Below are positions 54,369 through 63,100 of a stretch of DNA of 64,000 nucleotides, piece after piece. The stretch comes from Perkinsus marinus ATCC 50983 (Eukaryota > Perkinsozoa > Perkinsida > Perkinsidae). The notes below the pieces were generated by a model, which was given only the letters and a program-made list of their open reading frames with translations, ran no database searches and was not told the origin of the DNA. Location: assembly GCF_000006405.1 (NCBI RefSeq), contig NW_003208655.1, positions 124,001 to 188,000 of the forward strand, read 5' to 3'. The position numbers were made by a program, and so were the translations under genes. Within the stretch, counting starts at the first letter, position 1. Every line of letters begins with the position of its first letter.

Positions 54369-54450
54369 GACACTTTGGCCGAGTGGTTAAGGCGGCGGCC
54401 TGCTAAGCCGTTGGGCTATGTCCGCGAGGGTTCGAATCCCTCAGGTGTCG
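54369..54450 (+). tRNA. tRNA-Ser (GCT anticodon)
   Basis: 82-nt cloverleaf with an extended variable arm, as expected for serine. Acceptor strands GACACTT and AGGTGTC pair (one wobble), the D-arm carries GGCCGAGTGGTTAAGGC, the anticodon stem GCGGC/GCCGT encloses loop CTGCTAA (anticodon GCT, decoding AGC/AGT), and the T-arm contains GGTTCGAATCCC. No intron. Confidence 0.95.
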
Positions 54451-55669: not shown

Positions 55670-57554
55670 TTAGAGAGCATCTTTTGATTCCATTTCTTGA
55701 CGTGAGTCCGCAGCAGCTGCGGAGACGGGAGTCACAATAATGATCGGATCCGCCGAACTGAGTGGCCGTTGTAATGCAGTGGGCTCTCCAAACTCTATGC
55801 TAGGCCGATGCATCGGACTGGAGACAGGCCAAACCTTGATTCCCAAGGCTGGGTCTGTGCGATGGCGTCGCGGAGGGGAAGTGGGCGGCACTCCAGCTTC
55901 GGATGAGGTCCTCAACTGACGATGACTAGCCTCATCATCGCTCCGGTGTAGTTGGGCCGAGTAAGTCCCCGAGGTAGCATCATCGTCATCAGTACTCGTG
56001 AACCAAGGATGCTCTAGAGCTTCTCGAGCTGTAAGTCTGCCATAGAGACACCAATGGCCACAGTGAAGATGGCACATGACTACTACCTGCTATCAGGATA
56101 GAGTGAGAGTAGTCGACTCCGGAGATCCCTGGCTTCCTTCGAGATACCACTGCCGAGTCCCTCCAAATCCATAGTACTGATCCGTCTCATGATCGCCCTG
56201 TTGTCGGGCGCTGCTGCAGGTGGTACGGAAGGCCGGAGAAGAAGATGCAGAACTACACCAGCGGCCCACATATCGGAAGCGCTGGAATACCTGAATAGTT
56301 GCGCAGCTCGGCAGATGCAGCATAACGCCAATGGCCGCCGCACCACCTGCCCTTCCTGATGCACTCCGGCGCTAGATAGTGTATTGAGCCGACGATCTGC
56401 TTGTCAACGACCCCAGACTTTCCTCTACACCTCAGGGCAAGGCCAAAGTCTATCAGTCGGGCCACCTCAGCTCCGTCTTCATCTTCGGCAATCACAATGT
56501 TCTCCAATTTTACGTCGCGGTGTACAACGCCGCATTCATGACATCTAATACGAAGGCTACCCCGTCGGAGATCGCGATGAACCTCGCGTCGTTTCCTACT
56601 GTTCTAAGGCATGTAGTAGATCTCGAACGAATTTCTTAGCCTCCGCTTCCTGCATAGGGGTCGCAGTCACCCTCTCTGAAGCCGTTGTTGGAGTTGCACT
56701 AGAAGTTGACATCGATAGAAGTCGCAGTGCTAAACTCAACGGTGACTTGGAGCTACTCCTGCTACTACTCGGACTTGCAGCAGGAGATGCTGGACGGGAA
56801 TCTCTGACTAAAACGACGATGCAGTACTCTACTCACAAGGGGGTCGAGTCCCGTCTCACTTGGTGGAAGCATCGGACCATCTATACTGGCAGGGGGAGGC
56901 AGCAGTGTATTCCCGAAGCTCGACGACCTCCTCGCTGCACGTAATACTGGTGACACGTGACACGGCTCCAAAGAGTTCACCTTGACCAACGAGCACATCA
57001 CCAATCCAGCAACAACCAGGCGCAGACTCACATGTAGGACTCTCGATAGTAGAGTGCCTGCAGCGCAGTATTCCAGGACTAATCGGGCGTACATGTTATC
57101 GAGATATACGGCCTTTATAGAGCATATGTTGGGATGAGGGCAGACCCTTGCGAGCATCCTGACTTCATTACGCCATTCTGAACGGCTCCTATCCATCGAT
57201 TTCACAGCCACCTGACACTGGAATCTGCACAACAACACCGCACCAACCTACCAACGAATCGTCTTCAAGGGACTTCCACAACTCCACAGTAGCACAACCT
57301 CCACCCCTGCCCAGGGGCACTTGCTCGCTGCATTTTTGATAGTCGTCATAAATGCTAGACTCGCTAATGGGAACTTCACCATCCTGGCTCACCGCACCAG
57401 AACTTCGATTTGATACGGCATCGTAGTTGTCAGCTGCCCAACGCTCCGAAGCACCATTTCGAGAGGGAGAGACCATTCGCGATGGGCCACCAGCCTGTCC
57501 CGACTGCCGCCTCTGGTGTCCTCTCTTGGAACAGAGTTCACCCCAGCATGGCAT
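55670..57554 (-). CDS. Serine/threonine protein kinase (CAMK-like)
   Basis: Complete kinase motif set from several exons. Ser-rich N-terminus, then glycine loop PLGRGGGCATVELWK, VAVKSMDRSRSEWRNEVRML (ATP Lys and helix-C Glu), PNICSIKAVYLDNMYARLVL hinge, HRDVKLENIVIAED (catalytic Asp), RLIDFGLALRC (DFG), GSIHYLAPECI (APE), ASDMWAAGVVLHLLL (helix F), and LTAREALEHPWFTS (end of C-lobe). The C-terminal tail is about 110 residues, Ser/Pro/Asp-rich with no EF hands, so it is not a CDPK. Best described as CAMK-group from the HPWF ending; no closer family is assigned. Stop at 55670. Confidence 0.85.
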
Positions 57555-57732
57555 CCTCGATAAACCCTAACAATAATTCGATACTTCACAGCGACCCCTA
57601 CGAATTGATACCAAACTCAACAGAAGGGAGTACTGAGTCGGTACTAGTGATAACAATAATGAAGATTCGTAAAGGAATTGACTCGTATGATCACTGTGGA
57701 CAAGTCGACACTCAACTGCCATCTTCGGGGAC

Positions 57733-57794
57733 ATCGACGGACTCATCAAGCTCGACGGACTGTAAAGTTTGCCGTCAAACCGTCATTCGTCAAT
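57733..57794 (-). promoter_or_regulatory. SECIS element (selenocysteine insertion hairpin)
   Basis: On the minus strand, 45 nt after the fusion gene's stop. Helix I ATTGACG (57794-57788) pairs with CGTCGAT (57739-57733), 7 bp. An internal loop follows. The quartet is TGAC (57785-57782) facing TGAT (57748-57745), giving the tandem G-A pairs. Helix II GGTTTGACGG (57781-57772) pairs with CCGTCGAGCT (57758-57749): ten consecutive pairs counting G-U. The 13-nt apical loop begins CAAAC, placing the conserved unpaired A's 11 nt from the quartet, the standard SECIS spacing. Confidence 0.85.
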
Positions 57795-57838
57795 TGCCGA
57801 CCATCACCACCAGAGACCATACAGAGTCAAGCTTCCAC

Positions 57839-59099
57839 TTAGAGTTCTTGTTTAATCATATCATTGATCTTCCCATCAGAGATGAGCTCCTGAAGTTCGC
57901 TGTTGCCACCAATGAACTTGCCCTTTATGAACACTTGAGGGAAGGTCTTTTGACCCGTGACGGCCTTCACAGCTTCCTTCACAGCCGCACCATTCTCCAT
58001 GGTATCAACCTCAACGACCTCCAAAGAGCTTGTCAACTGACAACAACCAACAAAATACTGCGATCGATCATACAACTAGGCCCTGTTGGTCTTCAAAGAC
58101 GTCTTACCTCCTTAAGACTTGCAAGAGATGCCTTGCAATGGGGACAATAGGAAAGGGTGAAGCCTACGGCAGTAGCTGGGCCATTGATCTTATCCTCGAC
58201 GAACTTCTTAGCCTGCTACCGCAAATGCATTGCTACGATCAGAAAACATGAGTGAGTACCTCTTCTGGGGACATGCTGGACTTTTTCTCCTCCGCATCTT
58301 CAGCCGAGGCAATCTTCTTACCTTCCAACCTACCCTCTATGCAGGCCTCTATATCGTCGGCGATATTAGCCTCCTTGGGATCCCAAAAGCACACGACCTC
58401 GCCACTGACAAAAAACGGCGCATTCTCCACACAAAGGGAACTGTAGAGAACTAACATACTTCTTATTGACGAGGAACTTGCCAAAGTTCCAAGGGATCGG
58501 CTTGGATTTTCCCAACTTCGGATCATACAAGCCTGAGTGGTACTTGAGGAACCTGTGACAGACACGATACTGACTCACTACTCTATGGGACAGGAGTTAC
58601 TCAAAGACCGGAGATGCTTTGTCGCCGTTGACATCACAAGGCTCTGCTAGTAAAAAGACCTTGTCCTTGACACCAGGATAAGGCTTGAGGATGTCCGTCA
58701 CGAAGTCATCGATATCCTTATTAGTCTTCATCTCCTGATTGAGGAATTGTCTGAACACCAACAGCATCCATAGATGACTACAATGAGAAACTTACCGGCT
58801 GGGGAAACCGACGATTTTGAAACCCCTGTCCCCGAATTTTTGGCCCAGCTCCCCGAAGAGCTTGTATTGGGCCTGAGTCAAGCCTCATTTGGATGCGACG
58901 TTGGCCACCAGCACGACGTCACCTGAGGAGAGGCACACTGACTTCACCAACAACATCAAGAGTAGAAGTACGTACCACGGAACTTCTCGAAGTTCAAGAC
59001 CTCGCCGTTAATCAGCGGGGCCGAGAGCTTATAGAAGTTGTCGACGGTGACGCGAGGCTTCGTAGCACCAAAGCCAAGCGCACTCTGCAATCCTCCCAT
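57839..59099 (-). CDS. Selenocysteine glutathione peroxidase fused to a glutaredoxin
   Basis: Spliced 313-residue protein. Residues 1-190 are a glutathione peroxidase: KLSAPLINGEVLNFEKFRG|DVVLVANVASKUGLTQAQY, where U54 is an in-frame TGA (58885-58887) at the catalytic position, then QKFGDRGFKIVGFPSRQFLN, PVFEFLKYHSGLYDP, PWNFGKFLVNKNGEVVCFW with catalytic Trp155 and Asn156. Residues about 214-313 are a glutaredoxin: GFTLSYCPHCKASL (CPHC at 236-239), EVVEVDTMENGAAV, KTFPQVFIKGKFIGG. The two domains join through SSMSPEE|AKKFVEDK across a 47-nt intron in frame, so the fusion is encoded by one transcript. Six introns. A SECIS hairpin lies just past the stop. Expected role: peroxide reduction with glutathione, the attached glutaredoxin handling the mixed disulfide. 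Confidence 0.88.
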
Positions 59100-60101: not shown

Positions 60102-63100
60102 ATGCCTACGGTTAAGCTGAAAGTGTCAGTGAGGAGTATAGCAACAGGAGACTACATCTCTCTTCATCCGAGTGATAGTTCATCACTCTTCAATGGGGTT
60201 CCTCCGGTCAATGGCCACTTCTGCCAAGTCTTGCAGTCCAGCACGCCTGGGCAGTATGTGGGCTGGGCAGGGCACGCGGCGTCGGTCAAAGGTGCTGTGG
60301 AGGTATCGAGGCCCTTCGCATCAGCTTTGGGATGGACAGAAGGTCAGTCTATCGAGCTTAGCCCTGTCTCTATCGAGAGCATACCCGAAAACACGGGCCC
60401 TATTGTGATACAACCATGCAGTAGCGACGACTGGGAAGTGGTAGAGCTACAGGCTGAGTACCTCGAATCGGCCCTGCTCTCCCAAATAGCGGTGCTCTTC
60501 CCTGGCCTCAAGTTCCCCTTATGGCCCGAGGGTGGAGGAAAGCCCATCTTTATGGAAGCCGTATGGGATGAAGATGAGCAGGCTGGAGGCACTCCCAAGG
60601 TGCCATTCAGATTGCTCTCTGAGTCTGATGAGCTCGCGATCGAGGCCAAGCCAAGGAAGCTGCTATTACCGGACATTCGGAATGAGGTCAAACGAATGTG
60701 CCGAGTTGTTTGTAGCGAAGAAATGTTTCCTACTGCTATTTACGACAAATATGGGGTCACTTGTGTGCTGCATTCAACTGCTGGAGTTACTACTGGTATT
60801 GCTCGGCTCGGTGATGATATTGTAGTACCGTCAATGGTCGACAACGATTTGGTGGACCCTGGGTACGTCCTGTTGCATCCCTTGGTGGCGGCTCATCATC
60901 CCGAAGTAATAGCTGAGGCTAGTGCAGTGTTGGTGAAGGCCTGTCGAGAGGAGCCCATAATACCATCTGAAATAGTTCTAACAACTGCAACGTATTGCGG
61001 TGATGTTTGTCGGGACTTCTGTGATACTGTAGATCGGCTCAGATGCTTGGTGATCCAAAATGGTGGTTGGATGAGGTTTCGGAGGCCTTCTGTGGCGGTG
61101 AACGGTAAGGTCACTCGCCGGGATGAGCCACCTCGGTCTAGGTCTAGTTGCCGTACAGTAGTGGTTGATAATGGAATACCAGAAATTCAATATTGTGATG
61201 AAGAGGGCATCCCAGCTAACCCTGTGGCTCGCAGCACCTCTGAGTATATCGACGTCAAGGTCACCTTCCCCGAGCAGTCTGTTTCTGACGTCTGCCTGGT
61301 CCTCCCACAAATGCTTTCCAAAACTGCACCGATCGGTCTCAACGGGACGAGCCTGAGGGATGGGGTCCACGTTGGGCTCAGTGCGAGGGTTGATGGGTCG
61401 ATAGTTAAGTCTCCGAAGCCTCGGAGTCCACTACTGTCCTATATCCCGTTGGAAACAGCCGGGATAATGAGAACTTATCGTTATCGACAGTGCTTTGAGG
61501 AGCCTCCGCCTTCCCTACGTAAACTAGCTGCGGAGGTATCATCTTGTATAGTTGCTGGTCTGTCTGGTAGGATGCCTGCATCCCTACCGGTGCCTGGGGT
61601 GGTCGTGACGGGTTGTTCTGGTAGTGGCAAGAGCACGGCGGCTCGCTATGCTGTTGGCGCCTTGTGCTATACGGTGGTAGAGGTGGACTGCGCCCAGCTG
61701 GCCTCGGCAGAGAGGTTCAAGTTTGCAGTGGTCAAGAAGGCCCTTTTGGGTGCATTCAAGTTTGCCTGCACCTACGACCCGCCGAGCGTACTGCTACTGG
61801 ATGATGTGGACGTGTTGCTGGGGCTGAGGCAGGATGGTAAACGACAGGGCGGACCGAGCTCAATATGCCAGGGAAGAAGTAGGGTGCTTGCCAGTATCTT
61901 GTGGGATGTGTTGAACTTCCATCTTCGGCCTACGCGGTCTCTGATAATTTTGGGGACAGCTGAAACTGTTGATGGCCTGGAAGGACTGTGTTCCTACATC
62001 GTGGCTCTGCCCTCGACGCTCGATGTGAAGGACCGTCTCGCCATACTGGGCAACGACCGAGGGGAGGGGTATACGTTGAAGGAGGTGTCGGTATTGGCCA
62101 GCTCTGGTGTGGATCTTCGTGATAGACGACGGGCCGAGGATAAGGGCATTGGCCGAGCCTCATTTCATAGACTGGGCTATCTGGGAGGGGCCAGCATCAA
62201 GCATGCGACAGAGAGACTTACTGATGCTATACAACTGCCCCTGAAGTACCCTGCTCTTTGTGGGGCTGTGCTCATACCGAAGGGGGCGATGCTGGTGGGA
62301 CCACCCGGCTGTGGGAAGACGGCGTTAGCGATGAGCGTTGCTGAGGAATGTGGCCTACCAGTGGTGGCTGTGCGGGGTCCAGAACTGCTATCTAAGTACA
62401 TTGGTGGTAGCGAGGCTCGGGTGAGGGAGACCTTTGCTAAGGCTCGAGCCAGGGCGCCTTGTGTTTTGTTCTTTGATGAGGTGGATGCCCTGTGCCCTGT
62501 ACGAGGGGCCGATTCTACTGGCGTGACTGACAGAGTTGTGAATCAAATGCTGACCTACCTTGACGGTGTGGAGGTCTCGGATAGCCCTGTGTTTGTGGTA
62601 GCAGCGACGAGCCGGCCTGATATGGTGGATCCAGCACTGTCGAGGCCGGGTAGGCTTGACATTAGTTTACTATGCGACATACCTTCCGGAAGGGATGATC
62701 TGATTGATGTCCTGGAGCATGCTGTCACCGCCTTCGAAGGTCTCGAGGAAGTCATCGCTAAGGCCCCATCTGACTGGGCCATGCGCCTGATAGGTCTGCT
62801 CTCGGGTGAAGTTGGCTTCACAGGGGCTGACATCAGAGCGGCCTTGGCTACGGCTCAATTGAGTATCGATGAAGAGGATCAGGATGGTTGGGGGGCCCTC
62901 GAGGATGCATGTACGAGGGGGATGTGTTCTGTTCTCGACAGCATTTGCTTTCTTCCTCAGTCGCTAAGCAGAGTGCATCGGCCCCTCATGACGTGCTGAG
63001 GAGGTACATCGATCAGTTTGCGGCCTATCGGCGGGATCAGTCCCATGAGGCAGACCCCTACCATCACCGTCATCTAGGCCCCTCTTTCGATGATGGGCTC

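Follow-up and report, generated by a model that had tools for sequence, protein, structure and literature searches.

Does a single gene of the shellfish parasite Perkinsus marinus specify a selenocysteine-containing glutathione peroxidase (GPx) joined in one polypeptide to a glutaredoxin (Grx)? The question is raised by the minus strand of a 64,000-nucleotide stretch of the ATCC 50983 assembly (contig NW_003208655.1, positions 124,001 to 188,000; hereafter the window, in whose own numbering positions are given), where an original prediction made from the letters alone had marked such a gene. We analyzed this locus against the whole genome (54.46 Mb in 347 contigs; contigs are labeled C and loci L). 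Judged from the sequence, we place at about 0.82 the probability that the gene specifies one polypeptide with an N-terminal selenocysteine (Sec) GPx, a charged linker of ~20 residues and a C-terminal Grx, in which the insertion of Sec54 would be directed by a selenocysteine insertion sequence (SECIS) and the tethered Grx would act as reductant. The fusion is well supported as a gene and putative as a protein.

Gene structure, domains and relatives

The predicted spliced model consists of seven exons on the minus strand (59099–57839), which form a frame of 313 codons for a protein of 313 amino acids. All six introns are bounded by GT–AG and are 45–71 nt long, and an in-frame stop lies just 5' of the ATG. 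Exon 1 (58976..59099) supplies the start codon, the N-terminus MGGLQSALGFG and the opening of the GPx domain, while exon 2 (58796..58922) carries the catalytic motif NVASK-TGA-GLT, supported by column conservation, and an FPS segment. The catalytic Gln (Q89) falls in exon 3 (58601..58750) and the catalytic Trp155–Asn156 pair, within WNFGKF, in exon 4 (58460..58552). Exon 5 (58260..58404) completes the GPx domain and adds the charged linker (approximately residues 189–208) along with Met209, which resembles an ancestral Grx start. Intron 5 (58213..58259; 47 nt) separates this exon from the main Grx exon, exon 6 (58108..58212), which encodes the active site CPHC (Cys236 and Cys239) and has Leu233 where Lys is usual. 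Finally, exon 7 (57839..58036) provides the remainder of the Grx (TFPQVFIKGKFIGG) and the true stop codon, TAA.

With Sec entered as Cys, the protein matches the Pfam GSHPx profile (PF00255) at 99.8 bits (cut-off 27) over all of its positions (1–108 of 108), followed by the Pfam Glutaredoxin profile (PF00462) at 52.6 bits (cut-off 22.9) over positions 4–60 of 60. AhpC-TSA reaches 21.5 bits, under its cut-off of 26, so the peroxidase part is not a peroxiredoxin; TIGR02180 (GRX_euk) scores 72.1 bits on the Grx part, under its cut-off of 87.25. In addition to CPHC, which places it with the dithiol CPYC class, the Grx has the TFP and GG segments of the glutathione site. The claim of one spliced frame running from the GPx into a Grx with a CPHC site is thus borne out, the Grx being near-complete.

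The only internal stop in the spliced frame is the TGA at 58887–58885 (codon 54), the predicted Sec54. At this column, all of the 119 other GPx-type matches aligned (from the best 120 of 656) have Cys, and all 119 likewise conserve the residues equivalent to Q89, W155 and N156. The TGA thus occupies, in frame, a conserved redox position, as in eukaryotic selenoproteins, and does so just where the original prediction had put the peroxidase catalytic residue. Two other columns of the same alignment are informative: the FPS of the fusion corresponds to FPC in 87 and FPS in 11 of the 119 matches, and its Val101 occupies the resolving column of the α2 region, where 103 of the 119 have Cys. Without a Cys at the resolving position, the fusion falls outside the 2-Cys (thioredoxin-type) GPx; besides codon 54, its Cys residues are at positions 122, 170, 186, 236 and 239.

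In a tree built from 60 of the 120 sequences, in which the fusion is a long branch, the GPx part clusters with five metagenome proteins (P0002–P0006; support 99/97) that have Cys at the catalytic position and no Grx. The N-terminus of the fusion fits MGxxxS/T, which we take to resemble an N-myristoylation motif and which three of these five relatives share as annotated; we do not use it as evidence. An exon-wise search recovered one GPx match in the genome, a lower bound. On viral contigs, nine loci are 30–36% identical to the GPx part.

Among proteins, the top match is an apparent orthologue, Perkinsus olseni “Glutathione peroxidase 7” (P0001; 224 amino acids, 90% identical). It runs continuously through the end of the GPx, the linker (which shows an in-frame indel of one residue) and the Grx, and is identical to the P. 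marinus protein at 93/100 positions of the GPx (residues 91–190), 20/24 of the linker (191–214) and 89/99 of the Grx. The proposed search of relatives for a GPx followed by a Grx thus found one in a second species. P0001 starts at what is residue 91 in the P. marinus protein (exon 3), 3' of the TGA, and its annotation has no Sec motif, nor does its name hint at a Grx. With the entry truncated at the UGA, the Sec part has probably been overlooked.

P0001 alone has PF00462 among the best 120 of 656 GPx-type matches, the other 119 having none. When the linker and Grx part were compared with 5.8 billion proteins, P0001 was the only match among the 92 scored candidates sharing five-residue words; the Grx alone, in the same collection, gave a single match among seven such candidates, a metagenome Grx without a GPx (P0121). 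At least one copy of the fusion is present in the P. marinus genome, and one was found.

The hairpin and predicted selenocysteine decoding

Behind the TAA lies a SECIS-like hairpin on the minus strand (57731..57795), with an ATGA core from 57786, 12 nt, an apical AAA and a TGAT partner strand. Its helix II has 10–11 pairs, and the 65-nt hairpin folds with a minimum free energy of −21.2 kcal/mol (z −2.07; 9 of 200 shuffled sequences reached as low a value). Rfam SECIS_1 matches the same segment (57795–57731) at 25.1 bits (E 0.043 over 1.7 kb, all families). Core motifs, spacing and helix are those of a SECIS in a 3' untranslated region (UTR), at an Rfam score under the gathering score of 35, which by itself does not make the hairpin compelling. 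The claim of a SECIS hairpin 45 nt past the true stop stands as to the hairpin and gives way as to the distance, which is 43 nt to the first base of the SECIS_1 match and 52 nt to the ATGA core.

A home-made loose hairpin rule produced 13 matches in the window, both strands counted, a rate of about one for every 10 kb of strand that serves as control for the hairpin scan. Across 57600–59099 of the minus strand it gave a single match, at 57786 with 11 pairs, and the strict SECIS signature occurs once in the window, at this same hairpin.

Other apparent selenoprotein genes of the genome place the hairpin in context. One (L034, C52:287000) has a CGG-TGA motif and an Rdx match of 52.3 bits; another (L035, C60:194114) has CQS-TGA and 39.3 bits to Rdx on hand-joined pieces. 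From their motifs we take these to be SelW-like and SelT-like, respectively. The hairpins of both, of the GPx–Grx gene and of an open reading frame (ORF) on C232 share the signature ACGAATGA-N12-AAA...TGA. Genome-wide, this pattern, which was built from those four, has 26 matches at 20 places, the four included, versus 4 matches for the reversed pattern. Given the position and strand of the hairpin, and a signature that it has in common with other apparent selenoprotein genes, a chance occurrence is unlikely; since Rfam, even at E ≤ 10, yields no SECIS at the SelW-like and SelT-like loci, the SECIS_1 model appears to be insensitive in this genome. The signature thus offers a simple handle on the Perkinsus selenoproteome.

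Among the new places is a thioredoxin reductase gene (L067, C306:255402, minus strand) that ends in GGSC-TGA-G-stop with a hairpin ~55 nt beyond, likely a second redox selenoprotein of the genome. The helix has at least eight pairs at 7 of the 20 places (GPx–Grx, SelT-like, thioredoxin reductase, C232, C274, C244 and C72) and seven at the SelW-like gene and at L045, L046, L057 and L062. Some places adjoin no evident selenoprotein gene, and L046 adjoins no evident gene; we set aside C244, whose neighbor is a retroelement-like ORF, and C72, with no evident gene nearby.

The C232 place (L013, 93127–93191, minus strand) is the second SECIS_1 match of the genome, and we dropped its reading as a chance match because its hairpin bears the common signature. 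The hairpin follows by ~175 nt an ORF of 408 codons with a hydrophobic start and end, which finishes ...CSTGA-TGA-CAT-TAA and matches no Pfam family at E ≤ 1; it is a possible selenoprotein with a penultimate Sec. At C274 (L066, 81757–81806, minus strand), a membrane-like ORF with no significant Pfam family has two in-frame TGA codons (CSA-TGA-DG and GA-TGA-CWPV) 5' of a signature hairpin. It invites comparison with the Ostreococcus membrane selenoprotein MSP, named in the available part of PMC2375036.

The machinery searches covered tRNA-Sec, SelB/eEFSec, SepSecS and selenophosphate synthetase. The tRNA-Sec model has 42 matches in the genome, of which 11 are over the cut-off and four are strong (68–73 bits), with the anticodon UCA in all three of these four that were checked (Rfam, ARAGORN); the model also has matches in all 14 control genomes, exceeding the cut-off in 5 of them. 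Sixteen tandem places on C60 (794958–804745), scoring 36–39 bits and under the cut-off, are probably other tRNAs. On C137, two ORFs have the Sec-specific elongation factor 5izk as their best solved match (E 5e-23 and 1.1e-05) and appear to be pieces of eEFSec. Other candidates from the SelB model were rejected on reading their translations: those on C142 and C233 are eIF5B-like, and those on C267, C104, C51, C299 and C213 read as other translation GTPases. The two eIF5B-like genes (L014 and L015) are ~84% alike across 1.5 kb. Taken together, tRNA-Sec(UCA), the eEFSec pieces and the SelW-, SelT- and thioredoxin reductase-like TGA genes support Sec decoding in this genome. The available part of PMC3281104 mentions a Perkinsus SELO homologue, and a literature search (open-licence articles, titles and abstract openings) found no description of a Perkinsus selenoproteome.

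Proposed mechanism and competing explanations

In the proposed mechanism, the UGA at codon 54 would be read as Sec by tRNA-Sec and eEFSec, guided by the hairpin 3' of the Grx stop. With the hairpin in that position, an ordinary mRNA that can decode the UGA would include the Grx exons as well. Peroxide would then oxidize Sec54 within the tetrad Sec54–Gln89–Trp155–Asn156. A GPx without a resolving Cys is expected to use glutathione (GSH). As no Cys occupies the thioredoxin-type resolving position here, the selenenic acid would need either GSH, giving Se-SG, or the tethered Grx for its reduction. Using Cys236 and Cys239, the Grx might accept the glutathionyl group of Se-SG or attack the oxidized selenium directly, regenerating the selenolate, and might in turn be returned to its reduced form via Cys239 instead of by free GSH.

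The last possibility is prompted by Leu233, which occupies the position of the GSH-activating Lys, two residues before the Tyr preceding the CxxC. Both Perkinsus fusions have Leu there, while yeast Grx and the two free-standing Grx pieces of the genome have Lys. These pieces are 28–30% identical to the fused Grx and, with a weaker match (E 0.07), make up a lower-bound count. In the available part of PMC5382279, this Lys activates both GSH and the enzyme thiol in ScGrx7 and PfGrx, with the CPYS Tyr suggested as an additional activator; the His of CPHC, which the free-standing pieces share, replaces that Tyr. The fused Grx may thus be specialized for the attached peroxidase. Of the original claim that a selenol peroxidase is coupled to a glutathione-dependent reductant, the fusion holds, and the coupling so described may be too simple given the Leu.

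Absence of the resolving Cys together with Leu for the GSH-activating Lys would point to a Sec peroxidase with a dedicated, tethered Grx. We can carry this further, if only speculatively, to a self-contained selenoperoxidase, in which the Lys-to-Leu Grx, no longer activating free GSH, would serve solely as the built-in resolving partner of the selenium center, with electrons perhaps supplied by the Sec thioredoxin reductase instead of GSH, in a parasite genus reported to have no catalase. This version strikes us as rather doubtful; were it true, a whole Grx domain would stand in for the lost resolving cysteine.

Several observations weigh against a Sec-GPx served by its tethered Grx. For the hairpin, the SECIS_1 score of 25.1 bits stays below 35, Rfam at its gathering threshold reports no SECIS in the window, the genome-wide E-value is 0.327 (the better of two matches at E ≤ 10), and a 106-nt stretch around it is unexceptional in folding energy (z −0.42; 65 of 200 shuffles equally low). 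The hairpin of the thioredoxin reductase gene, for its part, terminates in a GATGATGATGA run, leaving its register loose. As to the machinery, the eEFSec gene on C137 is under the cut-off of the SelB model, like all 33 of its matches, and neither SepSecS (PF05889, TIGR03531) nor selenophosphate synthetase (TIGR00476, PF00586) was found in exon-by-exon genome searches, which intron-rich genes can escape; despite these limits, we count the gap as real. At the resolving column, the 119-match alignment has P0002–P0006 out of register, and when aligned separately these five have a Cys three residues ahead of it, at the Asp98 position of the fusion. Finally, P0001 is a gene model, and the loss of the Lys could instead signal a weak Grx.

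The alternative that survives best is a true fusion in which the Grx plays a passive or scaffolding role (it might bind glutathionylated partners, for instance) and the selenium is reduced by free GSH, as happens in ordinary Sec-GPx. In favor of this view, Sec-GPx can work without a Grx. The fused Grx also lacks the Lys responsible for activating GSH in ScGrx7 and PfGrx, as given in the available part of PMC5382279. Set against this alternative, CPHC, TFP and GG are retained in two species and 89 of the 99 aligned Grx positions match, which suggests constraint, although a comparison of two such close relatives is a weak test. We regard a passive Grx as possible, if on balance unlikely.

A second alternative is that the locus yields mostly separate products, the GPx from a transcript that retains intron 5 or is polyadenylated early and the Grx from the internal Met209. 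Reading through intron 5 ends in VLTHVF and a stop, Met209 opens a stretch resembling a Grx start (MSPEEAKKFVED), and some P. marinus mRNAs bear a spliced leader (available part of PMC2868825), for which a downstream acceptor might serve. However, the sole hairpin found by the loose rule on this stretch of the minus strand (57600–59099) lies behind the Grx stop, so that a GPx-only mRNA lacking that 3' end could not decode the UGA; Rfam agrees on the location, but it missed the SelW-like and SelT-like hairpins. The P. olseni model, moreover, is continuous with its linker indel in frame, and exon 6 has no Met ahead of the CPHC. Separate products are accordingly improbable in our estimation.

We rate as highly improbable a TGA that arose by sequencing error or by codon decay, in a Cys GPx or a pseudogene. 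The five nearest GPx relatives do have Cys there, and SepSecS and selenophosphate synthetase went undetected in the exon-by-exon genome searches. Yet the 313 codons contain no other stop, and this one coincides with the catalytic codon and is accompanied by a SECIS-like hairpin beyond the true stop; tRNA-Sec, the eEFSec pieces and the three TGA genes indicate Sec decoding; and the P. olseni model begins past the same codon, as expected from the same stop there, which is an indirect argument from a protein model.

Known systems and neighboring features

Sec-GPx of the GPX4/GPX1 type have Sec in the motif NVASxUG, catalytic Gln, Trp and Asn, no resolving Cys, and a SECIS in the 3' UTR. The fusion, with its predicted Sec, resembles them in all of these respects, and GPX4 and GPX1 chains are among the Protein Data Bank (PDB) sequence matches of its GPx part; it differs from them in its FPS segment and its C-terminal Grx.

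The closest precedent for the domain combination is the peroxiredoxin–Grx of Haemophilus (HI0572, PDB 1nm3) and other proteobacteria, in which a thiol peroxidase is likewise joined to a Grx of the CPYC class; the Grx part matches 1nm3 weakly (E 2.3e-05). A Grx-fused thiol peroxidase is reportedly present also in Anabaena, going by the title of a cited reference. Those proteins have a peroxiredoxin, whereas the peroxidase here is a eukaryotic GPx with a predicted Sec, and, coming from a different peroxidase family, the design would be convergent. Peroxiredoxin–Grx hybrids are described as bacteria-specific in the available part of PMC2679010, a 2009 survey whose table of Grx partner domains, in the same part, does not include GPx. 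Thioredoxin glutathione reductase, chains of which are among the matches of the Grx part, is also a selenoprotein with a fused Grx; its Grx, however, is N-terminal and joined to a flavin reductase rather than a peroxidase. For algal selenoproteomes, GST–MsrA and SelM fusions are described, with no GPx–Grx seen, in the available part of PMC7539508. The literature search outlined above found no GPx–Grx fusion. The suggestion that the architecture was undescribed hence agrees with the literature search and with the other 119 matches considered, and has to be tempered in that the principle of a Grx fused to a peroxidase is already known from the peroxiredoxins.

If the tethered-Grx reading is right, a peroxidase became linked to a glutaredoxin a further time, on this occasion in a eukaryote and involving a selenium enzyme, raising the question of whether a tethered Grx can be the resolving step of a Sec-GPx. 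The expressed sequence tags (ESTs) of P. marinus include glutaredoxins, glutathione reductase, peroxiredoxins and thioredoxin reductase, with no GPx seen in the available part of PMC2868825. P. marinus is also reported to have no catalase and to rely on ascorbate peroxidase (available part of PMC6642578). With ascorbate peroxidase and peroxiredoxins both reported, the GPx–Grx would be one part of the peroxide defense and not the whole.

The fusion gene has recognizable neighbors in the window. Just 3' of it and on the same strand, 56083–57566 contains protein-kinase-like pieces (HRDVKLENI, DFGLAL) identified by eye. Divergent from it, 60102–62999 on the plus strand is an open frame of 965 amino acids with AAA-ATPase-like motifs, again by eye. 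A tRNA gene scoring 62.5 bits occupies 54369–54450 on the plus strand.
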